This document shows, piece after piece, positions 1-21,981 of a DNA stretch of 64,000 nucleotides. The notes under the pieces are model-generated. The model saw nothing but the letters and a program-made list of their open reading frames with translations. It had not been told where the DNA came from and did no database searches. Each line of letters starts with the position of its first letter. Positions within the stretch are counted from its first letter, which is position 1. Location of the stretch: assembly GCA_951640195.1 (NCBI GenBank), contig OX621174.1, forward strand, positions 682,001-746,000, written 5' to 3'. Source of the DNA: Porpolomopsis calyptriformis. Taxonomy: Eukaryota > Basidiomycota > Agaricomycetes > Agaricales > Hygrophoraceae. Position numbers and translations under genes: made by a program.

Positions 1-603
1 CAATTTTGGCCATGATCTCGAGAGGTAGGGGGGAATGAAAACAAAGCTTGGATAAAAAGTTGGGGGACGATAAACTGATAATCGCATTGATGAAAAGCGC
101 ATTGACAAAAAGTTCTTTTGGCAGAAGGACCTTGTCCTCCACCTCCTCATAAGACTCCGGGTAATGATCTGGACGTTTGGAGAGTCCATCAGCCTTATTC
201 TTGATTCTAGGCTGGTAGCTGATTCTGAACCAAAAGCGAGCCAAAAATTCAGACCATCTAGCCTGGCGTCTGGAGAGCTGATGACTGGTCATGAAGTATT
301 GGAGGGACTGGTTGTCAGTTTTGATCATAATGGGTTGCTGTGTCCCTTGCAGGAGGTATCTCCATTCATTCAAGGCAGATATGATGGCTAAAAGCTCTTG
401 GTCATGGGTGGGGTAATTTCGTTCAGCTGGGAGGAGGGTCTTGGAGTAGAAACCAATGGGGTGCCAATCTTCTTCGTCATTCTCTTTCTGGGTTAAGACT
501 GCACCCAGTGCAACACCAGAAGCATCTGTCTCCAGAAGGTAAGGAAGATTTGGCTTTGGGGTCCTCAAAACAGGAGCAGAGGTAAGCGCATTCTTGAGGG
601 TAT
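1..603 (-). mobile_element. Family B LTR retrotransposon copy B2, left visible fragment (pol)
   Basis: This stretch matches, in reverse, the Pol RNase H to integrase-start part of the intact plus-strand copy at about 11,500-12,080. It is the 3'-ward part of copy B2, which continues at 7,496-7,932 and 14,917-19,746 once two later insertions are removed. It ends at 599-603 with GGTAT, the target-site duplication of the family A element inserted at 604. The arginine codon CGA that is mutated to TGA in copy B1 is intact here, near 430. The rest of B2's integrase, chromodomain, third ORF and 3' LTR lies left of the window. Confidence 0.9.
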
Positions 604-1003
604 TGTTATAAACCGGTTGTTCGGAACACATTTTACTTCGGGTGTTCTGTCCCAAGAGATATAAGAGATGGTTCCAAGTCCTTGTTATGAGTAGGCTAAC
701 GAGGAATCAGACTTAAGGTCTGATACGTACAGAAGTACTCTTTATATACTGACTACTTATCTGTGTGAGTCAGTGCGACATAACATGCGGTAGAGATAAG
801 GATGAGTCATCGTGATCGATGACGAATCATAAAGGGGTTGAAACATAACGGAAATGAAGTGTATCCGCATATAGGTAAAGTAAAGGGGAATCCCTGGGGA
901 AGGTAATGGGGAATCCCGATAATAGATGGGGGGAATCCCAAGATAAGAGATAGGTTTGCATACGATAAGATAAAGAAAAAGAAAGAAAATTGCGACTGTG
1001 ACA
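604..1003 (-). repeat. 3' LTR of family A element
   Basis: It begins TGTTATAA and ends GTGACA, and pairs with 7,097-7,495. Read on the minus strand it has a pyrimidine-rich U3 start and a TATATAAAG box. About 34 bp downstream lies AAGTCTGATTC, the predicted transcript start used for self-priming. Short open frames across it are incidental. Confidence 0.93.
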
Positions 1004-1021
1004 TACACCTCGGCTTTTAAG

Positions 1022-1040
1022 GAAATTCGTCCCGAATTTC
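1022..1040 (-). promoter_or_regulatory. Hairpin just upstream of the family A polypurine tract
   Basis: An 8 bp perfect inverted repeat (GAAATTCG, loop GGA, CGAATTTC in element sense) lies just before the polypurine tract and 3' LTR. Families B and C have hairpins at the same place with different but still complementary arms. That suggests selection on structure, perhaps for plus-strand priming or RNA processing. The structural role is inferred. Confidence 0.55.
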
Positions 1041-1044
1041 AAAC

Positions 1045-1779
1045 TTAGGCGGTGTCGGCCGTTTCGTCTTCCGAGGCCTGAGTCGGGATTTCCTCGGTGG
1101 CAGGGGCCTCGACAGCCACCGAGGGGGAAGCGGCGTGTTCGGCTTCCAGAGTCGCTTCAATGGGGGAGGGGGCTTGGACTGTCGCGACGTCGTCGTCGTT
1201 GTCGATTGGGTATTCGAGGTCGACATTGATGGGGTATTCCACCGATTTCCCGTACTCGATTAACGTCTCCATCGTCGCAAGATCGCGCTGGGTTCGGAGA
1301 AAGTCGTCTCTAGAAAGACGTTCGCTCCGATGACTTTCCTCTACGAGCTTGACAATGATGGCGCGGGTAGTAACGTCGTAGCAATTGACCCATGTCCGTT
1401 TCTTTTGACGTTGGAGCTCCCAAACTTTCAACTCACTTTGGTCCCAACGATTCTTCCAAAATAATGCGCTTTTCTCCGACGCTTTGAGCTCGGCTTGTAG
1501 AACTTCGCGTTCCTGACGAAGTTCGCGGTTCCAGTTACTGACGCTGTTACTGTGAACCGTGAGGCAGGAGATGGTGATGGCGGGGTCTTCGGGGGGAGGA
1601 GTCTGAACGGTGAAGAAATCTTCCGCGCGTGCGCGAGCTTGTCGACGTAGCTGTCGAGCAGAGGAAGCAGAGGTGGAGGGGCCAGGAGTGGGGGAGCGAA
1701 TGGCGGACGGGGGGATCTGTCCAGAACGTCTGATGGCGACTTGAGGGGAGGGGGATCATGTAGACCGTGTAGCGGGCAT
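1045..1779 (-). pseudogene. Family A third ORF (unknown function), one nonsense codon
   Basis: A third open frame of about 244 codons follows the pol chromodomain, starting at the ATG at 1,777-1,779 and ending before the 3' LTR. Codon 8 is TGA, most simply a mutated CGA; the frame is otherwise open. The middle is rich in Glu, Lys and Trp and looks like a coiled coil (around residues 85-130), and the tail is acidic. It sits at the same position as the third ORFs of families B and C and shares the MP start and the Trp-containing helix style, but lacks the H3-like motif. I know no function for it. Confidence 0.6.
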
Positions 1780-1951
1780 GGTAGAGTTGTTATGGTGTTT
1801 TTGGTTCAGTGGTCTGAGTCGTTGCCAAGATGAGGGGTGCGTAATTTGAATCTTGAAGGGAAGTGGAGACGTCCGGCAGTTTATAAGGAGTGGTTCTAAA
1901 AATAGAGGTCAATTCTTGGCAGATGAGATGATGACAAACGAATGAATAGAA

Positions 1952-4900
1952 TCAAGTCGCCGTTTGAATTGAGTCTTCGTACGTCTTCACAATTTCCTTG
2001 GCGTGTCGTAAAATGTTCGATCGGTCTTCCCAAGTGGCTTCTTCGATCGGATAGCCCTTCCATTTGACCAAATATTTTCGGCGTCGTTTAGCTCCGGAAT
2101 GTTGTAGTATGGATTCGACCTCGTATTCTTCTTCGTTTTCGATCAGATCAGGAGGAGGCCGTGATGTGTCGATGACATCAGGGTGGAGTGATTCATTTCC
2201 GACGTTTGGTCTCAGGAGTGAAACGTGAAAGACTGGGTGTAGTCTCCATGTTCCGGGAATGTCGATCAGATAAGCAAGATCCAATATCTTTTTTAGGATC
2301 TTGAATGGTCCAGTCCGTCGGTTGTCGAGCTTCTTCGAGGGTCGTGTCGTCTTGATGTTCTTGGTGTCCAACCAGACCAGATCTCCTTCTTCATAGGAGG
2401 GTGAAGGTTTCCGTTTACGATTGGCGTATTTCTTCATTGACTCCGTTGTCTTCGATAAGGATCATTCGGCGTTTTGCTGTGCACGTGTAAGACGTTCGTG
2501 GAAGGTATTTGCTGCGGGCACGTTGCTTTGATCCGGAATGATTGTGGGAAGGTGAGGATGACGTCCGTATTCCATATAGAATGGTGATTGTGAAGTGGCA
2601 GAGTGTTGCCGATTATTGTAGGCAAATTCCACAGAAGCAAGCCATTCTGACCAGTCGTCCTGCATGAAATTGGTATAGAAACGCAAGTAAACCTCGAGTT
2701 CTTGATTGGTGCGTTCCGTTTGACCATCTGTTTGAGGGTGATATGCAGTGGAGAGACCGGAGATGATTCCCAAAGAGTTATTGAGGGCTTCTGTGAATTT
2801 GGATGCAAATTGCACTCCACGATCGGATATAACCTTTTGGGGCCATCCATGATGTTTCCAGATATGATTCTGAAAGAGCTTCGCAGCACCTTCTGATGAA
2901 AGATTAGAAGTTGTCGGAATGAAATGAGCACGTTTAGTGAAACGATCGACAACAACCATTACAGCATCGTAGCCTTGTGACTTGGGGAGTTCGACGATGA
3001 GATCGACGGTGATTTCCTTCCATGGTTCCGTAGAGGGGGGTATGGGTTGGAGTAGTCCTGACGGCTTCGAGGGGAAGTTCTTGTTTTGTTGACAAGCGGG
3101 GCAGGATCGAACGTAGTTGGTGATGTCTTGTAAGGCACCATCCCAAATAAAGTTACGAAGGACGAGTTCCTTCGTCTTCTCAATGCCAGGGTGGCCAGCA
3201 TGGGGGTAGGCATGGGACAGTCGTATAATATCTGTGCGCAAAGATACTTCCTCCGGCACTACTATCCAACCTTCAACATCGCGTACAAGCCCATCAGCTT
3301 GGGTCCAAGCGAGTGAGGCATCCTCGAGTTTATCTTGGATCTTCTGTGGGAGTGGGATTTTGAAGCGTAATCTAGAAAGAAAGCTTGAATTCGACAACTT
3401 GACAATTGAATTTATCCATCAGTCGCGCGCTATCAGAACTTCGTTCTCCACGTCGGCTTCGACGCCAGGCAAGTAATCTGGGCGTCTGGACAGGCCGTCG
3501 GCCTTGTTTTTCCTCCCTGGAACGTATTCAATCTTGAACCTGAATCTGGACAGATACTCAGACCAACGAGTTTGGCGATTTGACAGGCGAAGATTTTTTT
3601 GAAAAATATCGTAAGGCCAAACTGTCCGTTCTGATAAGAATATCGTGTCTCGCCCCTTCGAGGAGATGGTGCCATTGTTTAAAGGAATCAATGATCGCCA
3701 GGAGTTCCAGATCGTGGGTAGGGTAGTTCTTTTCAGCAGGAGAGGTAGATCTTGAGTGATAACCGACAGGTTTCCAATGTCCGTCATGAAGCTGAGAGAG
3801 TATTCCCACGATTCCAATGATAGAGGCATCGGTTTCCAAGCAATAAGGGAGATCGTGATCAGGAATATGAAGGATGGGCGCGTTCGTTAAAAGGGACTTG
3901 ATGTTGTCGAAGGCTTCTTGTCTCCGAGGAGTCCATTCCCACACAGTTTCATTGTGCAAGAGCTCATAGAGAGGGGTAGCGATTCTGGAGAAATCCTTGA
4001 TATATCTCCGCCAAAAGTTCGCACTGCCCAAGAAGGATTGGAGTTGTTTCACCGTCTCCGGAATAGGCCAAGACATGATAGCATTGACTTTCTTTGGGTT
4101 GGTGGTGATTCGTCCTTTGGATAAGACGACTCCGAGATAAATGACTTCTTCCTTCTCGAACTGGCATTTGACGGGTTTACATGAAAGTCCGTGTTTCTTC
4201 ATGATATCTAGAGTCTTGAAGGTCCAGCGTCGTAATTCTTGTAAGTCGTCTCCACAAACAAGCATGTCATCGATATAGATGAAAACGTTTCCAGAGTCCA
4301 GGACTTCTTTGAATCTTGTGTCGATCATCCGTTGAAAGGTGGCTGGTGAGTTCCGTAAACCAAAGAACATGATGGTGGGTTCGAAGGCGCCTGCTTCAGT
4401 GATGAAAGCAGCTTTCCATTCGTCGCCTTCCTTGATCCTGACGTTGTTGAATCCCCATCGGATATCCATGACCGTGAATAGAGAAGCAGTTAGAAGTTTA
4501 GGTCGTTGGAGTATTTGATGAAGAAGAGGAAGGGGGTAATGGTCAGGAACCGTGTGTTCGTTGAGGTAGCGATAATCCTCGATAGGGCGTAAGCCAGCAT
4601 TCTTACCTTTAGCATTCACTTCTTCGGCTTTCTTTCCAAAGAAGAACGGAGAGACTTGTTTCGATTTGGAAACTCGTATTCGTCCAGTAGACAGGTTTTC
4701 GTCGATGAACTTGTGTAAGTGATCCATCTCAAGAGGGGACATTGCGTATTTCGCGCCTTTGACTGGCCTGAAGGTTTCATCCAGTTCTATAGCGTGGTCG
4801 AATTCCGAATGCGGTGGAAGGCGGTCGAAGGATTCTTTGGCAAAGACACTAGAATAGTCTTTCCAGTATACCTCCGGTACAAACTTTCGCATATCTTCTT

Positions 4901-5504
4901 CCACTGTGCTGGCTCGGGATTCATCCGACTTCGATACGCGTCGATTCATGGCCAGCATGACCGATTCCATTCCCAGTGACTCCGCATCTTTCGCTATCCA
5001 TCATGGTAGAGGGAAATCTTTGCTATCCAGAGCCAGTGTTGCCTCTTTCCAATCGATGTTGGGGTTGTGCTTTTTGAGCCACGGGAAGCCGAGGATAATA
5101 TCTGTCTTAGATCCGAGATCGGTCACTTCCAATCGGATCCGTTCATTGTGTCCTCCAGGAGCCTCTAACCAAATATCAATATCGTTCTCGATGGGTCCAC
5201 CTCGGTTTTCAGATCCATCGGCATTCCGTATGGGGATTGGGGTTTCCAATCGTGTTAGAGTAAAATTGTGGCGAGTTGCGAAGGATTCGTCCACGAAATT
5301 TCCAGAGGCTCCACTATCAACCAGAGCAGTGGCCGGGACACGTCGACCAGTGTCGGTAGCTTCAATCCAAACGTCCAAAATGAGTCCGAGATTGCCTTCT
5401 TCAAGAGTACCAAGAATTCGAAATAGATTGCATGGAGTGGTGGTACATTCTTGAGTAGATACGTCCGTAACGGTAGGCGAAGCGTTCGGACTCTTTAAAA
5501 ACCC
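1952..5504 (-). pseudogene. pol: Family A pol polyprotein (protease, RT, RNase H, integrase, chromodomain), broken
   Basis: Read from the slippery site at 5,498-5,504 the frame gives an aspartic protease (LVDSGASGNF), a reverse transcriptase with FIYIDDML, RNase H, an integrase with an HHCC-type zinc region and a TDGQTERTNQE block, and a C-terminal chromodomain containing YLVKWKGYPIEEATWE. It would be normal Ty3/Gypsy chromovirus length. In-frame TGA codons lie near 5,001, at 3,419-3,421 and at 2,462-2,464. One extra base in the A7 run at 3,594-3,600 shifts the frame inside RNase H; alignment with family B shows that A6 would keep register. The copy cannot make full Pol. Confidence 0.92.
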
Positions 5505-6652
5505 TGTTCTTTCAGTTCCTTGACGAGCTGAGCTTTTCTTTCCTTCGGCCAGTGATCAATCCCGCAGTTGTCCACCACTCGAATAGTTTCCTCCGCAGTA
5601 GCCGGGGAAACCACCTCGTCGGCACGTTCCATCTCGATTCCTCGAATACTTCGTCCTCGACCTCGCCCTGTGGTTGGTCTTCCTCGTCGTTGTCCGGCAG
5701 GGGCACTACTCGATGGACGCGCTGCCGAAGAAGAGGCGAGAGGGGAATTTGGACACTTGTTCGCCCAATGACCTGATTCTCCACAGCGATAGCAGTTGCC
5801 TCGCGGAACACGCGATACTGATGATGAGGGAGGTGTCTTCTGTTTGATAGGAGCAGAGGAGGGAGTTCGGGTCGTCGTTCAAGCCACGGTCTCCCTGGGA
5901 GTGTAGTAGTTGCTCCGGGGAGTGGCACGACGCTCAAGTGCAAGCTCGAGACGTTGTTGGTCGAAGACGGAAGCTTTTCGCTTCCAAGCGTTAAGGGTGG
6001 CGGGGATGGGATCAAGGGCATAGATCTTTTCAAGAATTCCGGGATTGAGGCCGTTCCGGTAGAAAACTTTGAGGGCGTCGTCGTTAAATCCTGTTTCGTC
6101 TGCGAGAGCTCCGAATCGTACATTATAATTGTCCACAGTAGAAAGTCCTTGGGTTACCTTTTGAATTTTGACTTGCGCTGTTGCTCTCGCATCAACGTCT
6201 CCAAAGCACTCCTCAAGCTCTTCCATGAAATCTTCGTAATCGGCTCCGATCCACTGAGCACGCTTGAACTCTTGGGTCTGTTGTCGGGCCCATGACTGGG
6301 CAACACCAATCTTCATAAACGACAGAACATAAGTAATTTTCTGTCTGTCGGACCATTGGCTGTCGTCAAGGACTAGACGACAAGCTTGGATGAAGTTGAG
6401 GCATTTGGCAGCAGACCCGTCATATTCATCGGGTTTGGCGATTTTGATGGAGGGGGGAGCAGGTTGTTGAGGCAGAAGAGGTTGCTGGGGTTGCTGGGGT
6501 TGTGGAGGAGGTTGGGGTTGTTGTTGTTGGAGCTGGGTGATCAATTGTTGTTGTTGGGTGATGGTTTGTTCGAGTTGGCGAACAGTGGCCACCAAGGTCG
6601 CAATATCAATGGTAGGGGGATTGGTGGGGGCGTTAGCGGACGTTCCTGACAT
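5495..6652 (-). pseudogene. gag: Family A Gag with CCHC zinc knuckle, one nonsense codon
   Basis: The frame starts at ATG 6,652 and runs to TAA at 5,495-5,497. It has a Gln/Pro-rich N-terminal part, a retrotransposon-Gag core (around residues 75-240), and a nucleocapsid knuckle CYRCGESGHWANKC (C-X2-C-X4-H-X4-C). A single TGA near 5,879-5,881 separates the core from the knuckle; it lies in the same frame and is most simply a C to T change in CGA. The end overlaps the slippery site feeding Pol. Confidence 0.88.
5498..5504 (-). promoter_or_regulatory. Predicted -1 ribosomal frameshift heptamer GGGTTTT (family A)
   Basis: On the minus strand gag ends CAG GGT TTT TAA. The G GGT TTT heptamer has the X XXY YYZ form that allows a -1 slip, and the pol frame is exactly the -1 frame through it. 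The same heptamer directly abuts the gag stop in both family B copies, so it is conserved while the stop itself differs (TAA or TGA). Confidence 0.7.
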
Positions 6653-7084
6653 GTTGGTAGATGTCGGTTGTTGTGGAGTTGCTGGAGCTGTTGGTGTTGG
6701 TGTGGGTGTCGCAGAAGAAAGTTGGGAGTAAAGGGAACCGTATCGTCCTGGTGGAGTAGCAGTCCATTGATGAACTGGTCTAGTTGCTGGTACTGAAGAC
6801 GAAGTGAAGAGTCCTCTTGTTCTTGATCGAGTCTGTGGTCCTAGAGAGGCAGGAGCAGGGGTAGGGGTGGCTATCGTTTCTTCAAGGACTGAAGAAAAGG
6901 ATGGTTCTTGATCTCGAACTGTAGCTGAGAAAGTCGATCTTGAAAGGGGGTCTTCGTAGTGTTCTTCAATGTCTGAGTTGTCGGTAGAAGCCAGGATGGA
7001 AGTTGGTAAGGGGCAAAGAGGTGATGTCGATGATCACAGCGATGGGGGTGTTTTGGATAAGCAGGTGGGAGAGAACCAGAAGGA

Positions 7085-7096
7085 AGTCTGATTCTT
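7085..7096 (-). promoter_or_regulatory. Self-priming PBS of family A
   Basis: The 12 bases next to the 5' LTR read AGAATCAGACTT in element sense. Eleven of them are complementary to AAGTCTGATTC inside the same LTR (7,196-7,206), which lies about 34 bp downstream of the TATATAAAG box (7,232-7,240), where the transcript should start. This is the arrangement known for Tf1 of fission yeast, where the mRNA 5' end primes reverse transcription. Confidence 0.75.
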
Positions 7097-7495
7097 GTTA
7101 TAAACCGGTTGTTCGGAACGCGTTTTACTTCGGGTGTTCTGTCCCAAGAGATATAAGAGATGGTTCCAAGTCCTTGTTATGAGTAGGCTAACAAGGAATC
7201 AGACTTAAGGTCTGATACGTACAGAAGTACTCTTTATATACTGACTACTTATCTGTGTGAGTCAGTGCGACATAACATGTGGTAGAGATAAGGATGAGTC
7301 ATCGTGATCGATGACGAATCATAAAGGGGTTGAAATATAACGGAAATGAAGTGTATCCACATATAGGTAAAGTAAAGGGGAATCCCTGGGGAAGGTAATG
7401 GGGAATCCCGATAACAGATAGGGGGAATCCCAAGATAAGAGATAGGTTTGCATACGATAAGATAAAGAAAAAGAAAGAAAATTGCAACCGTGACA
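7097..7495 (-). repeat. 5' LTR of family A element
   Basis: It is the partner of 604-1,003 and is followed by the second copy of GGTAT. It carries the TATA box (7,232-7,240) and the predicted self-priming transcript start (7,196-7,206). Confidence 0.93.
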
Positions 7496-7932: not shown

Positions 7933-8291
7933 TGTCAGAGATATATTTTTTCCTTTTCCTTTGCTCGTCTATTCCCATTTACATCAGACAGTTTACACCA
8001 ATAGCCGCTTAGCCACCCAAACTCCGCTTAGTAATACAAGGTGACCAAGCCATATCTATATTTAGTCAACCATCACTCTCCTTATCTACATGACTCATCC
8101 ATAGTCGTTACGACTCACACGTAGTCAATATGACTCATACTTAGCTAGTATATAAAGCTAGCAGTAGATAGACTTAGGATAAGTCTGTTTCTTTCGTTAA
8201 CACCCCAATCAGTAGTCTTCCAACCCTTTAAAACCCTACACCCAGAGCCTGAAGTAAAACCTTGCGATCAACCCTAGACTGCTGTCTAACA
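7933..8291 (+). repeat. 5' LTR of copy B1
   Basis: It starts TGTCAGAG and ends TCTAACA. It has a pyrimidine-rich start, several direct copies of GACTCA-type motifs, and a TATATAAAG box at 8,149-8,157. AAGTCTGTTTCT follows at 8,181-8,192 as the likely mRNA start. Confidence 0.95.
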
Positions 8292-8303
8292 AGAAACAGA
8301 CTT
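8292..8303 (+). promoter_or_regulatory. Self-priming PBS of copy B1
   Basis: AGAAACAGACTT immediately follows the 5' LTR and is complementary over all 12 bases to 8,181-8,192 in the LTR, about 32 bp past the TATA box. Copy B2 has the same pair (19,376-19,387 with 19,487-19,498). Compared with family A, one base pair differs on both sides (T-A versus A-T), a compensatory change supporting real pairing. Confidence 0.78.
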
Positions 8304-8471
8304 CCTTCTTGCTCACTCCACGCTATACAACCCCTACTCTGTCTGGCCAGTGCTGAAGGTCTTCACCCACGAGATCAATTTCACCACCCAGACATTAACA
8401 TCGATTAGGCTTGCTCTCTCCCCTTGTATTCCCGTCAAGCCCCCCAATATCCAACTGCCACCGTTCCACCA

Positions 8472-9893
8472 ATGGTTTTGACTCATTCATCATCCACTAT
8501 CCCTCACCCTGCTATCCCTCTCTCCCAGGAAGGCTCTCTCCCTCCTGCCCCAGCTCCCATCCTCGACGAGACGGTTGACCTTGCCCAAGAAGAAGAACAA
8601 GAAGAACAAGAAGAACAAGCGGGTCCCTCTCACTCAAAAGGGAAAGGTCGAGCTGAGGACAATGATGAGGATGAAGAAGAAGATCCACGCGTAGCCTTTG
8701 AGATCATGAAGCAGGATTATCAACAATTGCTGCAGGTCCAACAAGACCAAGCGCAAGCGAGTCATAGAATCGAACAACAACTTCAAGTATTGATGGCCAA
8801 CCTCATAGGCCCCCAACCTGTCCCTGCCCCTCTTGGGCTATTCCCACAACCTCTCCAAGCACCCCCAGTATTCCCCCAACCTGTCCCTGCCCCTGCCCCT
8901 GTCCCTGCCCCTGCCCCTGCCCCCGCCAAGATCAAAATGAACCCTCCTGACGAATTCTCTGGTGATCCCACCAAGCTCCGCAACTTCCTGCGTCAAGTGA
9001 AGTTGAATCATTTGGGACGACCAGGAATCTCAGAGGCCGACAAGATTATCTATGCCTTGTCGTTTATGATCGGAGGAAATGCAGAACCATGGGCTGAGCG
9101 TCAAGTAGATGCTTACACAACATTGAACTGGGTTGGTGCCGATTGGGCTGTCTTTGAACAAGCCCTCACCCGAGACTTTGGAGACTTGGACCCCAAGTCA
9201 ACTGCTCAACTGAAGATCAAGGACGTCAAGTAGTTCAACAAGAGCGCAGAGGAGTACAACATCAATTTCAATCGATGGGCCCATGATACTGGATACGGAC
9301 AAGAAGCTTCGACGACTTTGTATAAAGATGGACTCAACCCCTCCCTTTTGCGACAGATCTACCTTTCAGATCGTCAACCCACCACCCTCTTTGAATGGCA
9401 GTCTCGTGCTGCAGAACTTGACAGACGACATCGAGAATTCCTGGCTAGAACATCTTCTAAGCCCCAGACTCGTAACACCCGTATCACCAACACCCCCTAC
9501 CGACAAGGACCACCTGCTGGTCCCTCCACCTATTCCAACCCTGCTGCCCCCAGAATCAAACAAGAAGAAAAGCCTGCTTCACTAGGAGGAATTCCCAAAG
9601 GAGCATGTTTCAACTGTGGACAATTTGGCCACTTTGCCAGTTCTTGTCCCAATGCTCCTAGGACGAGTACTTCTGGTTCTGGAAGCCGCCCCTTCACCCC
9701 AGCAGCTAGAGGTCGTGGAGGAAAGAAACCCGGTCGAGGAAGAAATGTTCAAGTTCTGGAGACCTCAGCCTCGATTGAGGAGGTCAACTCCAATGAAGAT
9801 TCTCGTCAAGACTTCGAGAAGTGTGGTATCGTCAACTGGGAGCCTAAGAGGAAAGAAGAGCTGAAGAGAGCTTTGGAGAAACAGGGTTTTTGA
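8472..9893 (+). pseudogene. gag: Gag of copy B1, single TAG nonsense codon
   Basis: ATG at 8,472 is preferred over an upstream TTG. The protein has an acidic Glu/Gln-rich N-terminal part, a Pro-Ala repeat patch (8,880-8,930), a Gag core, and a knuckle CFNCGQFGHFASSC. A TAG at 9,231-9,233 interrupts it where copy B2 has CAG (Gln), so the break is a C to T change. The frame resumes directly and ends TGA at 9,891-9,893 inside the frameshift site. Confidence 0.92.
9884..9890 (+). promoter_or_regulatory. Predicted -1 frameshift heptamer GGGTTTT (copy B1)
   Basis: Gag reads CAG GGT TTT TGA. A slip of -1 on G GGT TTT enters the pol frame (GGG TTT TTG AAC) with no stop. It is identical in copy B2 (93-99 within 16,0xx, i.e. 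16,093-16,099) and conserved in family A. No downstream pseudoknot was evaluated. Confidence 0.7.
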
Positions 9894-12800
9894 ACAGTCC
9901 GGACAATAGCTCGTGCGTTGCGGACTCCTTTTCTATGTGTACCACTACCCCTATGCAATCTATTTCCCAAATTCTTGGTGCACTTGATTCGAGCGAAGAA
10001 GCTTTAACCATACCCCTTTGGTTGGAAACCACAGACACTGGTAGACGAATTGCCGCCAGTGCATTGATAGACTCTGGCGCCTCTGGATGCTTTATAAACT
10101 GGAATTTTGTGCAGGAGCGCGATATCCCTTTTTATCGATTGGAAGGACCAATCCCCGTGCGGAACGCAGATGGGACAGACAACCGAGGAGGTCCCATCGA
10201 ATATGCTGTAGACCTGTGGATGGAGACGCCGGATTTTCCTAGGGAACGAACCCATTTGGAAGTGACAAATTTAGGAGATATGATACAGGTTATCCTCGGC
10301 TACCTGTGGCTCAAACGTAACAATCCCCTGGTTGACTGGAAGGCTGGAACACTGACTTCACGTCAGACTGTGGCCCCAACCAAGACTTCTCAGGCTGGAG
10401 TGATAGTGTCACGAGTAGGCTCTACATTGAATGGCGACTCCTACGCCAAGATTATCAGATTGGTCTCACTGGGAGACCATGCAAGACCCACTACCGTGGA
10501 GGAAGATATGAAGAAGTATGTGCCGAAGAAATACTGGAGGCACTGGAAGGTGTTTATGAAGACCACCTTTGATGAACTTCCTCCACGACGACCAGAATTT
10601 GACCATGCGATCGATCTCGAACCTACCTTTAGGCCCAAGATCGGAAAGGTGTACAAACTCACTGAGTACGAACAGGGAAAGCTGAATGAATTCCTGGAGG
10701 AACAACTTGCAAGTGGACGAATACGACGATCAAACTCCAAACAAGCTGCCTCCTTCTTCTTTGCTGCCAAAGGTGAAGAAGTTAATGCCCAAGGACAAGA
10801 TGCTGGACTACGTCCAATCCAAGACTATCGCTATCTGAATGCTCACACAATCCCAGACGCCTATCCCTTACCTCTCATCTCTGAGATTATTCAACAAACC
10901 AAGTTATCAGAAGCGGAACTGTTCACAGTCATGGATATCCGATGGGGCTTTAACAATATTCGTATCAAAGAAGGAGACGAATGGAAAGGAGCCTTCAACA
11001 CTCGACGAGGGCTGTTCGAGCCCACCGTTATGTTCTTTGGAATGCGAAACTCGCCTGCCTCCTTCCAACGAATGATCGACGTTCTCTTCAAAGAGGTTAT
11101 CGATTCCAAGCAGGTCCATATCTATATTGACGATATCCTGATCATGGGAAAGGACCTCACTGAACTCACCTATTGGACGGAACGAACTCTAGAGATCATG
11201 GAGAAGAATCAACTGTCCTGCAAACCTGTCAAGTGCCAGTTCGAGAAAAAGGAAGTGATTTATCTGGGGATGATGATCTCAAAAGGCCACATTGCTATTA
11301 ACCCCAAGAAGGTTGAGGCGATCAGAACCTGGCCTATCCCCCAGAAGAAACGAGATCTCCAATCCTTCCTTGGCACTGCCAACTTTTGGCGGAGGTTTAT
11401 CAAGGATTACTCCCTGATTGCTCGTCCTCTTAATGAGCTCCTACGAAAGGATCAAGAATGGATTTGGACTCCTAGGCAACAACGTGCTTTTGATACCCTC
11501 AAGAGTGCGCTTACCTCTGCTCCTGTTTTGAGGACCCCAAAGCCAAATCTTCCTTACCTTCTGGAGACGGATGCTTCTGGTGTTGCACTGGGTGCAGTCT
11601 TGACCCAGAAAGAGAATGACGAAGAAGATTGGCATCCCATTGGCTTCTACTCCAAGACCCTCCTCCCAGCTGAATGAAATTACCCCACCCATGACCAAGA
11701 GCTTTTGGCCATCATATCTGCCTTGAATGAATGGAGATACCTTCTACAAGGGACACGACAGCCTATTATGATCAAGACTGATAACCAGTCCCTCCAATAT
11801 TTCATGACCAGTCATCAACTCTCCAGGCGCCAGGCTAGATGGTCGGAATTTTTAGCTCGCTTTTGGTTCAGAATCAGTTACCAGCCTAGAATCAAGAATA
11901 AGGCTGATGGACTCTCCAAACGTCCAGATCATTACCCGGAGTCTTATGAGGAGGTGGAGGACAAGGTCCTTCTGCCAAAAGAACTTTTTGTCAATGCGCT
12001 TTTCATCAATGCGATTATCAGTTTATCGTCCCCCAACTTTTTATCCAAGCTTTGTTTTCATTCCCCCCTACCTCTCAAGATCATGGCCAAAATTGAAGAT
12101 CCCTCTTCCGGATACACCCACGTAGATGGCATTGTGTGCGATGCTGGAGATCGTATAGTTGTGCCAAAGGACGTATCTTTGCGCACAGAAATTATTCAAT
12201 TGACCCACGACACACCCACTGGTGGCCATCCCGGTATTGAGAAGACGAAGGAATTGCTCCTCCGTAATTACACATGGGAAGGTGCCCCACAAGATATCAC
12301 CAATTACGTGAAGTCCTGCCTTGCTTGTCAACAGACCAAGGTTTATCCACAGAAACCCACTGGACTTCTCCAACCGTTACCCCCTCCTACTAAACCGTGG
12401 CAACAGATCACTGCTGATCTTATCGTGGAACTCCCTAACTCAAAAGGATTCGATGCTATTCTAGTTGTGGTGGACAGATTCACCAAACGGGCTCACTTCA
12501 TCCCAACAACTGGAAACCTGTCTGCTAAAGGAACTGCTGCGCTATTTCAAGAACATGTCTGGAAGCACCATGGATGGCCAGAGAAGATCATTACTGATCG
12601 AGGAACCCAATTCTCATCGAAGTTCGCTACGTCATTGAATGAACTCCTAGGAACCACTTCTGGGCTTTCTACCGCCTATCACCCCCAAACAGATGGACAA
12701 ACCGAACGAACCAATCAAGAGTTAGAGCAGTACATACGGCTCTACACTAACTTCATGCAAGACGATTGGAAAGATTGGTTAGCTCCGGCGGAGTTCGCTT

Positions 12801-13471
12801 ATAACAACCAAGAACATTCCTCCACTCACCAATCCCCCTTCTGGCTTGAATATGGCCGACACCCTCACACCCCCTTATCAGTTCCAACCCAAACCTCAAA
12901 TCCCGATGCCAACGAGTTTTACGTGCAGCTTACTAGAGCTAGAGAGAACGCTGAAGAGTCTCTTCAAAAGACCGCTAACTCAATGAAGCTCTATGCCGAT
13001 CGAAAATGTCAAAAGGAACCCACGTTTTACGAAGGACAAAGGGTCTGGCTTGATGCCAAGAATTTGAAAACTGGCCGGCCCGCAAAGAAACTGGATGTCC
13101 GCCGGCTCGGACCTTTTATAATTCTAAAACAAGTATCGCCTGTGGCTTACCGACTAAAGCTACCACTGTCATGGAGGATTCATCCCGTGTTTCACGTTTC
13201 GCTACTCAAGGCTCTAGAAGAGAATCTCGATCTCCACCCCCCAATCGGAGAAGATGACAATCTCCGACCACCTCCAGATGTGATCGAAGGAGAGCCCGAG
13301 TATGAAGTGGAACGTATCTTAAATCACACCCCAGGAAAACGAAACCGACAATATCTAATCAAGTGGAAAGGCTACCCGATAGAGGCAGCCACCTGGGAAC
13401 CACGATGGAACCTCAAGCACGCAAAAGACGTCTTAATGAATTATGAAAAGTCTATTCAAGCAGCGATTTAA
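9887..13471 (+). pseudogene. pol: Pol polyprotein of copy B1 (PR-RT-RH-IN-chromodomain), single TGA
   Basis: There is no ATG near the start; the protein should be made by -1 frameshifting from gag. In order: protease with ALIDSGASGCF; RT with HIYIDDILIMG; RNase H; integrase with H-H-C-C (GGHPGIEKT, CLACQQT) and catalytic DLIVELPNS, ITDRGTQF and TDGQTERTNQELE blocks; then a chromodomain near the end (YLIKWKGYPIEAATWEP). A TGA at 11,675-11,677 splits RNase H; copy B2 has CGA at this place, so it is a C to T mutation. Without it the protein would be about 1,190 residues, normal for a chromovirus. The chromodomain likely targets integration to H3K9-methylated chromatin, by family knowledge. Confidence 0.94.
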
Positions 13472-13585
13472 CTCTCTTTTACGAATACTACCAACATCAC
13501 GATCGTTGAATCTCCTTTTCTCCTTTTCAATCTCCGACAATTATAAGGACTTCCCCTTTCCAACAATCATCAAAAGAAGCACGAA

Positions 13586-14278
13586 ATGCCCCGTGAAGTT
13601 CGTTACGCCTGCAAGTCGACTGGGAGGCGTCCACCCCGAGGGAACCCCACCGCTTCTACCTCCAACCTCCCCCCCGATTCTTCTTCCTCCTCTTCCTCGT
13701 CCAACAGTGTCTTGGTTACCCGACGGTTCAAGAAGCCGAAGCGACGTACCGATACTATTGACAAGCCGGGACGAAACCGTAACTATCGAGGGCTCCCCTT
13801 TGCCAAGGTCGAGCACCTATCTGGGTGTCCCGAAACCTACGTCCCATTTATTTCTGGAGCACGTCGATGCGAACTTAACTACGACCGTCACTGGTACACA
13901 TTCGACAAGGACAGCGATTTTGACGACAAGAAGAATCAACTTGAAGATTGGCTGGAGGCGTACCAAGTTGGGCGCCAACTTTTGATGGTTATACCGGACC
14001 AGGACGAATCCGACGTCACCACCCCCACTATCCCCGAAGACCCCATCTCGCACCGCATCCATCGCGTCACCGACCGACTCTATGCTGCCCGAAACGGGTA
14101 CCGCTCGATGATGGATGCCAAGTATGAAAGGATCCTTGACCTGGAGGAGAATGCTGTGATGTGTAGGGAGCTGGCTGAAACTTGGTTGCGACGTGCCCGG
14201 GAGTTAGATGGCCGTTACCACTGGTTTGACCCAGATGGACACCTGCTTCAACCCCCAGTTTATGATGGCGCGACCTAG
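13586..14278 (+). CDS. Family B third ORF with histone H3 tail-like N-terminus
   Basis: This is an intact 230-codon ORF between pol and the 3' LTR, in its own frame and starting at ATG 13,586. Residues 8-17 read ACKSTGRRPP, like H3 residues 7-16 (ARKSTGGKAP), with the H3 Lys9 position kept and Arg8 replaced by Cys (TGC, one C to T step from CGC). A Ser-rich basic stretch follows, then a folded-looking part and a charged helix with Trp (about residues 170-215). Families A and C have ORFs at the same place; the family C version matches H3 even better. The function is unknown; a chromatin-mimic role is my inference. How the third ORF is expressed is not visible: it could be by reinitiation or from a separate transcript. 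Confidence 0.75.
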   Translation: MPREVRYACKSTGRRPPRGNPTASTSNLPPDSSSSSSSSNSVLVTRRFKKPKRRTDTIDKPGRNRNYRGLPFAKVEHLSGCPETYVPFISGARRCELNYDRHWYTFDKDSDFDDKKNQLEDWLEAYQVGRQLLMVIPDQDESDVTTPTIPEDPISHRIHRVTDRLYAARNGYRSMMDAKYERILDLEENAVMCRELAETWLRRARELDGRYHWFDPDGHLLQPPVYDGAT

Positions 14279-14522
14279 GGACCGGATGCTGTTTCCGAAC
14301 GAACAGTATTCCTTACGCCTCCCTTCTGGATGTGTGGTTAGAGAAGGTGATATCTACTGGAGAGTTGAGGAAAAGTATACCTAGTGGATAGTCTTTGATC
14401 CGACAACTATCCACTCATCCCTCCTCTTCATCGCTCACCCATCTCATCACCCCTCTACCCACCTCTACCATCCCTTTACACCTCCCCTTGACACCCTTCC
14501 TTCGCTTCGAAGGGTCTCCTCA

Positions 14523-14539
14523 AAATTCGGGACGAATTT
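14523..14539 (+). promoter_or_regulatory. Hairpin upstream of the family B polypurine tract
   Basis: A 7 bp inverted repeat, AAATTCG-GGA-CGAATTT, lies about 18 bp before the 3' LTR, just ahead of GTGGAGGTGAA (the likely polypurine tract, 14,547-14,557). It is the counterpart of 1,022-1,040 and 21,254-21,272. Confidence 0.55.
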
Positions 14540-14557
14540 CCTTTTTGTGGAGGTGAA

Positions 14558-14916
14558 TGTCAGAGATATATTTTTTCCTTTTCCTTTGCTCGTCTATTCC
14601 CATTTACATCAGACAGTTTACACCAATAGCCGCTTAGCCACCCAAACTCCGCTTAGTAATACAAGGTGACCAAGCCATATCTATATTTAGTCAACCATCA
14701 CTCTCCTTATCTACATGACTCATCCATAGTCGTTACGACTCACACGTAGTCAATATGACTCATACTTAGCTAGTATATAAAGCTAGCAGTAGATAGACTT
14801 AGGATAAGTCTGTTTCTTTCGTTAACACCCCAATCAGTAGTCTTCCAACCCTTTAAAACCCTACACCCAGAGCCTGAAGTAAAACCTTGCGATCAACCCT
14901 AGACTGCCGTCTAACA
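14558..14916 (+). repeat. 3' LTR of copy B1
   Basis: By eye it is identical to 7,933-8,291 apart from one base near the end. It is followed by GAAGG and then B2 sequence. Confidence 0.95.
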
Positions 14917-19387: not shown

Positions 19388-19746
19388 TGTTAGACGGCAG
19401 TCTAGGGTTGATCGCAAGGTTTTACTTCAGGCTCTGGGTGTAGGGTTTTAAAGGGTTGGAAGACTACTGATTGGGGTGTTAACGAAAGAAACAGACTTAT
19501 CCTAAGTCTATCTACTGCTAGCTTTATATACTAGCCAAGTATAAGTCATGCTGACTACGTGTGAGTCGTAACAACTATGGATGAGTCATGTAGATAAGGA
19601 GAGTGATGGTAGACTAAATATAGATATGGCTTGGTTACCTTCTATTACTAAGCGGAGCTTGGGTGGCTAAGCGGTTATTGATGTAAACTGTCTGATGTAA
19701 ATAGAAATAGACGAGCAAAGGAAAAAGAAAGAATATATCTCTGACA
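19388..19746 (-). repeat. 5' LTR of copy B2
   Basis: A 359 bp LTR with the same TATA box and self-priming site as copy B1, but with several substitutions relative to it. It is the outer right border of B2 inside family C. Confidence 0.93.
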
Positions 19747-19751
19747 GGAAT

Positions 19752-20508
19752 GCACCAATCAAGAACTTGAACAATACCTTCGTTTATATACCAATTTTAT
19801 GCAAGACGATTGGTCCAACTAGCTATCTCTAGCCGAATTCGCGTACAACAACCGACAACACTCCTCGACAAAGCACACTCCCTTTTACCTTGATACTGGC
19901 CAACACCCCTTCGTCCTGTCCATCCCCGCAACTTCTACTTCCAATCCCACAGCAGACACCTTCCACGATCATCTCACAGAAGCCCGTGAAGAAGCCACAA
20001 AAGCCCTAGAAGCCATGGCAGAAACCATGAAGCGCTTTGCAGATCACAAATGGAAAGATACCCAACTCCAAATAGGTCAATTTGTTTATCTTGATACCTG
20101 TAACTTAAAAACAGGTCATCCAACCCTCAAACTCGATGTCCGACACACTGGACCATTCAAAGTTCTAGAAAGAATTGGAAAAGTCTCTTATCGCCTGGCC
20201 CTTCCCTTATCATGGAAAATACACGACGTCTTTCACGTTTCACTCCTGAGACCCACTAATATTAACTCCGATCTCTATCCAGAAGAAGTAGATGATAATC
20301 TCCACCCACCTCCAGGTATCATTCAAGAGAAAGAAGAATATGAGGTCGAACAAATTCTCCAACATCATAGGTCTACCTGATGTCACATGTATCTAGTCAA
20401 ATGGGTCGGCTATCCCATTGAAGAAGCAACCTGGGAGCCGAAGAAGAACCTCCTCCATGCGAAAGAACGAATTCTAGAATACGAATGATCAATTCAAACG
20501 GCGACCTA
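19752..20508 (+). pseudogene. pol: Family C pol remnant: integrase end and chromodomain
   Basis: Starting in the TNQELEQYLRLYTNFM block of integrase, the frame passes a TAG near 19,819 (CAG elsewhere). It runs through the GPF-type module (GPFKVLERIGKVSYRL) and a chromodomain (YLVKWVGYPIEEATWEP) split by TGA at 20,378-20,380, with another TGA near 20,486. It ends at TAA near 20,506-20,508. Confidence 0.85.
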
Positions 20509-20630
20509 ATCACTCTTTCACGGTATCAACTCCCCTCCTTTTGTTTTTCACTTCCATCACCCTTTCTAAACTCCGACCCATCCTTATAATCTCTTTCATT
20601 TCCATCTTTCCCCTCAAAATCGACATTACC

Positions 20631-21209
20631 ATGCCCGCTGAATGCTCTCATCAAACTGCCTGCAAATCTACTGGTGGTCGTCCACCCCATGCTCCCCATA
20701 TGTCTACAGGAGGACAACCCCCTTGTCACGCTCCCCCTCCCCTCGCTTCCACCTCATCCACTTATGGTGAAGCCGAGCTCGCCGGACAACTCTGGCAACA
20801 CAACTGATGCACACGAAACTAGGACCTCACCATATGGCCCGAGGAAATTGTCGCACCACCTATCCCACCCAAGCAGATCATCAAGTTGTTGAAGAAGGAC
20901 ATTGATTACTACAAGAATGAGATCACAAGGTTGAATGAAGAATTGTACAGTCAGTGGTTGAGTTTGGATGGAGAAAGAAGGATGAGCAAATACTGGCAGG
21001 AACAGGCCAAATATTGGGAGGCAAAACACGAGGAAGTTGCAAAGGTACTTCCCCATCTCGATTCCCCTACTCCCCCTGTTTTCCCAGGTCCACTCATCGT
21101 TCCCCCCAGTTCATCGTCAAACCCCATCACTATCCCCGACGACGACGATACCTCCCCGGCCGACATTATTTCTCTGTCGACTGCTGTCTCTGACAAGGAC
21201 TTATCCTAG
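20631..21209 (+). pseudogene. Family C third ORF with a strong histone H3 tail match, two nonsense codons
   Basis: The frame from ATG 20,631 reads QTACKSTGGRPP at residues 8-19; H3 residues 5-16 are QTARKSTGGKAP, so nine of twelve agree, including the Lys9, Ser10, Thr11 and GG positions. A second, weaker MSTGGQPP unit follows. TGA at 20,805-20,807 and TAG at 20,820-20,822 break it, both one C to T step from CGA and CAG. The frame then continues as a Tyr/Trp/Glu-rich coiled coil and a Ser/Asp tail to TAG 21,207-21,209. Its position matches the third ORFs of families A and B. Confidence 0.65.
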
Positions 21210-21253
21210 TCCTTCCCCTCCTCCGCACCCATCAACACTCTCGAAGCTGCCTT

Positions 21254-21272
21254 GAATTTCGGGATGAAATTC
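21254..21272 (+). promoter_or_regulatory. Hairpin upstream of the family C polypurine tract
   Basis: GAATTTC-GGGAT-GAAATTC is a 7 bp stem in the same place as in families A and B but with changed, still complementary arms. It is followed by GTGTGGGTGTA and the LTR. Confidence 0.55.
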
Positions 21273-21289
21273 CTTTTAGTGTGGGTGTA

Positions 21290-21657
21290 TGTCACGGATA
21301 CTTTTTTCATTTTTCTTTTAGTCATACTTGATTAGTCTTTGTTCTGTTTACCTTTCCGCTTTACCGCTATATATATAGAGACTAGTCACATGTACCTTCT
21401 TTCCGACTCTTCACGAGTCACATTCCATTTCCATTATTCTTCTTGTGACTCTTCACCAGTCACATTCTGTATTCTGCTTTGTAATCGTCCATACAACTGA
21501 CTCATGTCGACTCAGGTAGTTAGTATATAAAGCCTGACCTCTAGTTAGTAGGTTAAGTTCGATTCCTAGTTAGCTCCCTCACTCTTTAGTCGAATTCCAA
21601 TTCCTTGTCAGCCCCTCCAACGCGAGAAGTAAAACCTTCGACTACCGAATCATAACA
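21290..21657 (+). repeat. 3' LTR of family C
   Basis: It starts TGTCACGG and ends CATAACA, with a TATATAAAG box near 21,523 and AAGTTCGATTCC about 35 bp downstream. That mirrors the TATA-to-start spacing of families A and B and predicts a PBS of GGAATCGAACTT. Confidence 0.8.
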
Positions 21658-21665
21658 TATTCAAG

Positions 21666-21981
21666 CTCTGGGTGTAGGGTTTTAAAGGACTAGCAGACTA
21701 CTGATTGGGGGTGTTAACAAAAGAAACAGACTTATCCTAAGTCTATCTACTGTTAGCTTTATATACTAGCTAAGTATAAGTCATACTGACTATGTGTGAG
21801 TCATAACAACTATAGATGAGTCATGTAGATAAGGAGAGTGATGGTAGACTAAATATAGATATGGCTTGGTCACCTTCTATTACTAAGCAGAGCTGGGGTG
21901 GCTAAGTGGTTATTGATGTAAACTGTCTAATGTAAATAGGAATAGATGAGCAAAGGAAAAAGAAAAAATATATCTCTGACA
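21666..21981 (-). repeat. Truncated solo family B LTR
   Basis: It matches the family B LTR on the minus strand from about LTR position 315 back to its TGTCAGAG start (here ending CTCTGACA), lacking about 45 bp at the left. It lies 8 bp from the family C LTR end. Confidence 0.85.

Follow-up and report, generated by a model that had tools for sequence, protein, structure and literature searches.

The window, a 64,000-nt stretch (C12:682001-746000) of the 33.5 Mb genome of Porpolomopsis calyptriformis, contains three Ty3/gypsy elements, here termed families A, B, and C, each of which possesses a third open reading frame (ORF3) after pol. The features of interest are as follows (window positions).

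~603-7487, minus strand: family A element
1045-1779, minus strand: family A ORF3, lacking an H3-like block and, in the window copy, interrupted by a stop at codon 8
~7933-14910, plus strand: family B element, its two LTRs being 99.7% identical across 353 bases
7933-8285, plus strand: family B 5' LTR (end approximate), a direct repeat with 14558-14910
9890-11677, plus strand: family B pol, first open stretch (Pfam RVP_2, RVT_1, and RT_RNaseH_2, i.e., protease, reverse transcriptase, and RNase H)
11705-13471, plus strand: family B pol, second open stretch, with the RNase H end, integrase, and chromodomain (Pfam Integrase_H2C2, rve, SH3_Tf2-1, and Chromo)
13301-13450, plus strand: family B integrase chromodomain (PF00385, E 4.6e-15, residues 533-582; cage residues Y, W, and Y in EYEVE and KWKGY)
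13586-14278, plus strand: family B ORF3, 230 a.a, with 136 matching genome stretches
13586-13642, plus strand: family B H3-like N-terminus, (M)PREVRYACKSTGRRPPRG, the lysine being residue 9 without the Met
14558-14910, plus strand: family B 3' LTR (end approximate), the repeat of the 5' LTR
19747-21700 (3' end approximate), plus strand: family C copy, 5'-truncated, with the integrase end, chromodomain, ORF3, and trailing part
20333-20485, plus strand: family C chromodomain, with a stop at 20378-20380 in the window copy and open in the L063 copy
20631-20807, plus strand: family C ORF3, window copy, 58 codons to the first stop (20,805-20,807)
20652-20678, plus strand: family C unit 1, QTACKSTGG (QTARKSTGG in copies with CGC)
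20691-20729, plus strand: family C unit 2, APHMSTGGQPPCH, mostly (A/T)P(R/H)MSTGGQPPRR in 28 copies; its Met (20700-20702) lies at the unit-1 Lys position

The family B element displays the organization of a Ty3/gypsy chromovirus, with LTRs and the protease, reverse transcriptase, RNase H, and integrase in gypsy order. The Pol tails of the three families are about equally distant from one another (A-B 58.6, A-C 60.5, and B-C 61.5% identity). The family C ORF3 in the window corresponds to the genome match C12:702631-703200, which has one TGA and one TAG inside, and in open copies of the family (e.g., L063) ORF3 encodes 192 a.a. We also noted a 274-base repeat (94.5% alike) on both sides of the truncated family C copy (19473-19746 and 21708-21981), as if the fragment had landed in, or was bracketed by, a small repeat.

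On the plus strand from 20,631, the family C ORF3 starts with ATG and continues through MPAECSHQTACKSTGGRPPHAPHMSTGGQ to its first stop, and the family B ORF3 reads MPREVRYACKSTGRRPPRG from 13,586. ARTKQTARKSTGG is the H3 sequence at two host loci, and the host H3 genes appear to be intron-interrupted. The initial annotation had described a look-alike of the H3 Lys9 region at the start of ORF3 in families B and C; we confirmed it at both places and found it to be stronger than first stated. Family C unit 1 is identical to H3 residues 5-13, giving nine H3 residues in a row (QTARKSTGG) in addition to equivalents of R2, P16, and R17, and family B is identical to residues 7-12. The initiator Met is removed before Pro, and family B minus its Met follows H3's own numbering, with identical R2, A7, R8, K9, S10, T11, G12, P16, and R17; its same-register H3 score was reached by none of 5,000 shuffles. 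Family C lies out of the H3 register, its lysine being residue 11, and its same-register score was equalled by 1,419 of 5,000 shuffles. The two ORF3s, which start MPREVRYARK in B and MPAERSHQ in C, align with each other over a 16-residue stretch that is the H3-like block itself (E 0.015), with no convincing similarity outside it (other HSPs of at most 10 residues, E 1.8 or worse). The block probably forms an unstructured N-terminus of ORF3, followed in family C by a probable coiled coil. Single-sequence structure prediction of the family B ORF3 (mean pLDDT 43) left the first 93 residues without secondary structure and gave a low-confidence helix at residues 153-207, a model too weak for a fold search, and the histone fold (PF00125) had no Pfam match in ORF3 of families A, B, C, or D, the last being a gypsy-like element described below.

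The match to H3 was compared with chance by shuffling the first 30 residues after the Met 5,000 times and scoring them against H3, the resulting counts applying per peptide, given that the block itself was first spotted by scanning the whole window. The window peptides scored 45 in family C (one shuffle as good) and 37 in family B (seven as good), and their Arg versions scored 63 and 45, respectively, with no shuffle as good for either; the concern that shuffled ORF3 N-termini might do equally well did not materialize. By the same measure, families A (score 22; 1,509 of 5,000 as good) and D (13; 3,631 of 5,000) showed no H3 match. When the first 36 residues of an open family C ORF3 were searched against the PDB, 128 distinct sequences were found at E up to 10, and every one of the 60 that were listed is H3, a peptide derived from H3, or Cse4 (lowest E 0.005). 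Across the genome, the codon pattern A-(R/C/W/stop)-K-(S/T and a few others)-T-G occurs 149 times versus 12 for the reversed pattern; of 30 matches read, 28 are family B or C ORF3 and two (L036 and L061) are chance, and three further pattern places coincide with host H3 genes. Further families with an AGR arginine in the motif were sought and rejected (two matches versus four in the reversed control).

The window copies carry Cys in place of Arg next to the lysine, which had initially been presented as a feature of both families. This reading did not hold, and the window Cys is instead attributable to CpG decay because most other copies read have CGC: codon 9 of family B (30 best of 136 copies) is CGC in 19, TGC in nine, and CAC in two, and codon 11 of family C is CGC in 28/28 copies (from the 35 best of 128). 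Both TGC and CAC are CpG transitions of CGC, and Arg is likely the earlier state at this position. Arg is not kept in all family C copies, with 12 further copies, read for lacking the strict motif, having His (10) or Arg (2) at the unit-1 Arg position; CpG decay accounts for the His. Decay of the family B ORF3 (L005-L034) was mostly by CpG transitions (178/206 nonsynonymous and 100/211 synonymous changes), which fits the expectation for DNA-methylated repeats.

Conservation in family C was evaluated in 28 copies drawn from the top 35 of 128 ranked matches, a sample that represents the better-kept part of the family and whose ranking query (L063) was itself found by the motif; copies found by the motif itself (L001-L004 and L035-L064) were excluded from the conservation statistics. 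Residues 8-15 read QTARKSTG in all 28 copies, with synonymous variants at five of the eight codons (pN 0, pS 0.34). Only three of the 183 eight-codon windows in the family C ORF3 had a pN that low, and codons 8-15 alone also had a pS that high. With the addition of 11 of the 12 copies lacking the strict motif (L136, shifted by one codon, was excluded), codons 8-15 gave pN 0.03 and pS 0.33, or 0.01 and 0.38 without codon 11, compared to 0.07 and 0.14 for codons 16-40. The initial annotation had proposed measuring rates over the motif, and in family C the motif does not evolve neutrally, even with the adverse copies included. Over the whole ORF3, pN/pS was 0.14 in family C and 0.23 in family B, and ORF3 is therefore a working gene in the copy-making lineage. 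On contigs C1-C8, 45 of the 57 family C places starting at residue 1 match the strict pattern (Arg, Cys, Trp, or stop allowed), and the lysine is kept in the other 12/12, although Lys retention alone is weak evidence because Lys codons contain no CpG. Fifteen family C copies with an open 1,273-a.a pol were listed, and the 11 ORF3s read among them (10 chosen without the motif, L039 by it) all carry ARKSTGG and the unit-2 Met.

The raw pN of the motif window in family B was among the higher ones, being matched or undercut in 209 of 224 windows (30 copies). This value is high because CpG changes dominate, comprising 21 of the 23 nonsynonymous changes in codons 7-19, and is by itself no sign of selection. 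Seven near-fixed differences separate two family B subfamilies, of which those at codons 7, 8, 17, 20, and 119 are synonymous and those at codons 4 and 6 only are nonsynonymous; the protein sequence of the block has therefore been kept from residue 7 on, judging from these few events. Six of the seven differences lie in codons 4-20 (window 13586-13645), as if the start of ORF3 had been exchanged between lineages. On contigs C1-C8, the strict pattern occurs in 39 of 70 family B places starting at residue 1, a count that leaves out four pieces of 24-30 residues starting at residue 1, two of them with the pattern. Among the 31 places lacking it, 11 were read and the lysine was kept in 11/11. Three copies with a 1,207-a.a pol and no stop in the match (L006, L015, and L028) all read ARKSTG, two of which (L015 and L028) have stops further on in ORF3.

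Family C reads ARKSTGGRPPR-(A/T)-P(R/H)MSTGGQPPRR, in which unit 2 repeats unit 1 with Met for Lys, the codons AAG and ATG being one base apart. The finding first noted ended at 20,700, exactly where the unit-2 ATG (20,700-20,702) starts to show. The Met is present in 28/28 copies and in 11 of the 12 further copies (L136 being shifted by a codon), with Ile in L134; as Met has only a single codon, its invariance carries less weight than that of unit 1, and it could alternatively be an internal start. The preceding residue is Arg in 16/28 copies and His in 12/28. In sequence, unit 2 is of the H3K9M type, with Met at the target-lysine position within an H3-like unit; family B has no unit 2.

Two known systems bear directly on such a unit. 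In the parts of PMC5030085 consulted, genuine H3 carrying the K9M mutation traps Clr4 and, when SAM is present, binds G9a, and residues 3-12 of an H3K9M peptide are seen bound to human G9a. The H3K9M histone reads ARMSTGG there, compared to P(R/H)MSTGG in unit 2, and is a histone mutation made in fission yeast, whereas ORF3 is a separate protein with Pro for Ala7 and, in 12/28 copies, His at the Arg8 place. EZHIP, as described in excerpts of PMC6513997, is a largely disordered and otherwise fast-diverging protein of placental mammals that inhibits PRC2 via a K27M-like peptide, the one stretch of the protein that is strictly conserved; for PRC2 at least, Arg is the preferred residue before the target Met. 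The His found there in 12/28 copies of unit 2 speaks against an inhibitor role. EZHIP and ORF3 are alike in that each contains a brief, almost unvarying imitation of the H3 tail in which Met takes the place of the lysine. As far as the same excerpts go, they differ in that EZHIP is a host gene directed at Lys27 with demonstrated PRC2 inhibition, whereas ORF3 belongs to a retrotransposon, concerns Lys9, has both Lys and Met units, and is a putative inhibitor.

We consider it about an even chance (probability roughly 0.5) that in families B and C selection has maintained ORF3 as an H3K9-tail mimic directed at the machinery of H3K9 methylation. This methylation is the main route by which transposons are silenced, and the block suggests that the element may interfere with or exploit its own silencing. 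ORF3 would serve a Ty3/gypsy retrotransposon with a chromodomain as an accessory protein whose N-terminus is most likely read by the H3K9 methylation machinery. It may sit in the active site of the H3K9 methyltransferase of the host, unit 1 serving as the substrate and, in family C, unit 2 as a Lys-to-Met trap. Methylated ORF3 may be offered to chromodomains, either that of the element's own integrase or those of HP1-like readers in the host, with the overall result that heterochromatin at the element would be weakened or redirected. In this scheme, expression, methylation, binding, and the effect on silencing are steps that we infer. The methyltransferase would be a likelier first target than other partners of the H3K9 system because of the Met unit, the next being the element's own chromodomain. 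Pre-SET domains mark SUV39/Clr4-type enzymes, and the host genome contains one match to this domain (E 1.6e-19); a chromoshadow-domain search for a host HP1 gave no match, an empty result that does not show absence.

A fully specified version of this reading, which we offer tentatively, is that of a retrotransposon-encoded anti-silencing protein whose tandem H3K9/H3K9M mimic would first be methylated by the H3K9 methyltransferase of the host and then trap this enzyme, so that heterochromatin across the element family would loosen, with the family B version in exact H3 register. If true, an element carrying both the substrate of the pathway and its Lys-to-Met version would represent a direct counter-defence and a natural heterochromatin inhibitor, a mobile-element counterpart of EZHIP, and short peptides would allow a test of whether retrotransposons use proteins that they themselves encode to counter H3K9 methylation.

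A different and rather unlikely use of the same block would be as a ligand for the element's own integrase chromodomain, where methylated ORF3 would bind Pol for particle assembly, integrase tethering, or the blocking of self-targeting, with no attack on host silencing. Both motif families carry a Pol chromodomain with three cage residues (Y, W, and Y by eye in the L063 copy of family C), and the PDB matches of the family B chromodomain include Oxpecker, LHP1, CDYL, HP1, and Clr4 chains. Family D, a gypsy-like element beside L035, likewise fits, in that its ORF has a coiled coil related to that of family C (E 7e-10) but starts MSTPYSAEAQRQW, without an H3-like block, and no chromodomain was found at its integrase end by Pfam. 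Family A speaks against this use, as its chromodomain shows the same three cage residues by eye, yet none of 16 readable copies (20 fetched; L092, L093, L096, and L097 had no readable start) has a Lys9-like motif, and ORF3 starts MPATRSTRSPSPQVAIRR or a variant in all 16. The pairing of motif and chromodomain suggested by the initial annotation thus stands in one direction, both motif families having a Pol chromodomain, and fails in the other, given the unrelated ORF3 start of the chromodomain-bearing family A. Of the three families examined that have a chromodomain, B and C contain the block and A does not; it is also absent from D, where no chromodomain was found, and is not general to ORF3 because A and D lack it. 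Moreover, the unit-2 Met cannot be methylated and would make little sense as a reader ligand. Separately, the ORF3 start of family A (300 candidates, 150 of them scored) is conserved in a form peculiar to that family, either MPATRSTRSPSPQVAIRR(S/A)GRIPSS or a shortened version of it.

Less likely again, the block may be a borrowed nuclear-import signal or another H3-tail docking signal, bound by an importin or another binder, for which Lys9 methylation would be irrelevant. Its basic and N-terminal character would suit such a signal, as would the listed PDB alignments, which span H3 residues 2-20 and include residues 11-18 as well as Lys9, and the MPR start of family B, for which an LSD1-type, SNAG-like role is thinkable (MPRxxxxxRK). 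On the other hand, the invariant family C core, QTARKSTG, is centred on Lys9, the positions of H3 Lys14 and Lys18 are non-lysine in family C, and this family has no MPR start. The SNAG pattern is MPRSFLV(R/K)K; a SNAG domain proper (N-terminal MPR, hydrophobic, then basic residues) was rejected by comparison with this pattern, family B being only partly alike and family C unlike.

That an ordinary conserved basic N-terminus of ORF3 merely came to resemble H3 is, in our estimation, improbable. The whole of ORF3 is constrained, P2 and E4 of the family C N-terminus are conserved as well, and the observations come from one genome, all of which would speak for coincidence. Against this stand the nine H3 residues in a row together with the R2, P16, and R17 equivalents, the 0/5,000 shuffles, and the fact that the block is the only convincing stretch common to two otherwise diverged ORF3s.

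Finally, the block might be a piece of a host H3 gene that was picked up by the element and is not kept for any role, to which the 16/17-base match of two family C types to two host H3 genes over A-R-K-S-T-G might point. This is highly improbable because pN is 0 versus a pS of 0.34 in 28 family C copies, synonymous divergence with little amino-acid change being unlike a passive fragment, and the protein likeness fades beyond the block with no histone fold. In the two family C types concerned (L055 and L038), the matched genes are different host H3 genes, L055 going with L073 and L038 with L075/L076 (C2:757900 with L073 and C1:1204890 with C5:682832); shared codon bias may explain these matches.

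Histone mimicry is already known, and what would be new here is a retrotransposon ORF with a constrained H3K9 block, a Lys-to-Met repeat, and the H3 register. Viral H3-tail motifs, which in the portions of PMC10208167 available include influenza NS1, the ARKS of SARS-CoV-2 ORF8, and adenovirus VII, are ~4-5 residues long, compared to nine identical residues in a row and evolutionary constraint in the family C ORF3; the nuclear role of SARS-CoV-2 ORF8 is disputed (PMC10833455, in part). Host proteins with an H3K9-like site have been proposed as candidates for H3K9 writers or readers (PMC10611923, in part), whereas ORF3 is a mobile-element protein. According to sections of PMC3350952, MAGGY-type fungal chromoviruses have a Ty3/gypsy Pol with a group I chromodomain, as in families B and C, and the MAGGY chromodomain (retrotransposon group I) binds H3K9me2/3; no ORF3 with an H3 mimic was found in those sections of the fungal chromovirus literature. 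Likewise, no description of a retrotransposon-encoded H3K9 mimic was found among the titles and abstract starts listed from the open-licence literature.

Relatives of Pol are numerous, with 5,378 protein relatives that include, among the 120 matches listed, Lyophyllum, Rhizoctonia, and Tremellales. An alignment search with Pol returned none in viral_contigs and 11 distant gypsy loci in genome_contigs, where no H3-like ORF followed pol in the three forward frames, several loci ending soon after pol. Searches with the family B Pol in viral_contigs and genome_contigs and with the family C ORF3 in viral_contigs returned none, and no ORF3 relative outside this genome was seen at E up to 0.01 among the 835 (B) and 157 (C) word-sharing candidates. 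Within the genome, L035 (G000:C1:519370-522386) comprises a family C piece, with a chromodomain remnant and an open ORF3, inside an apparent other gypsy-like element (with L084). This type of piece, read in L035 alone, has three equal-score places (C1, C4, and C5) and two close ones (C9 and C11), with a stop-free ORF3 match.
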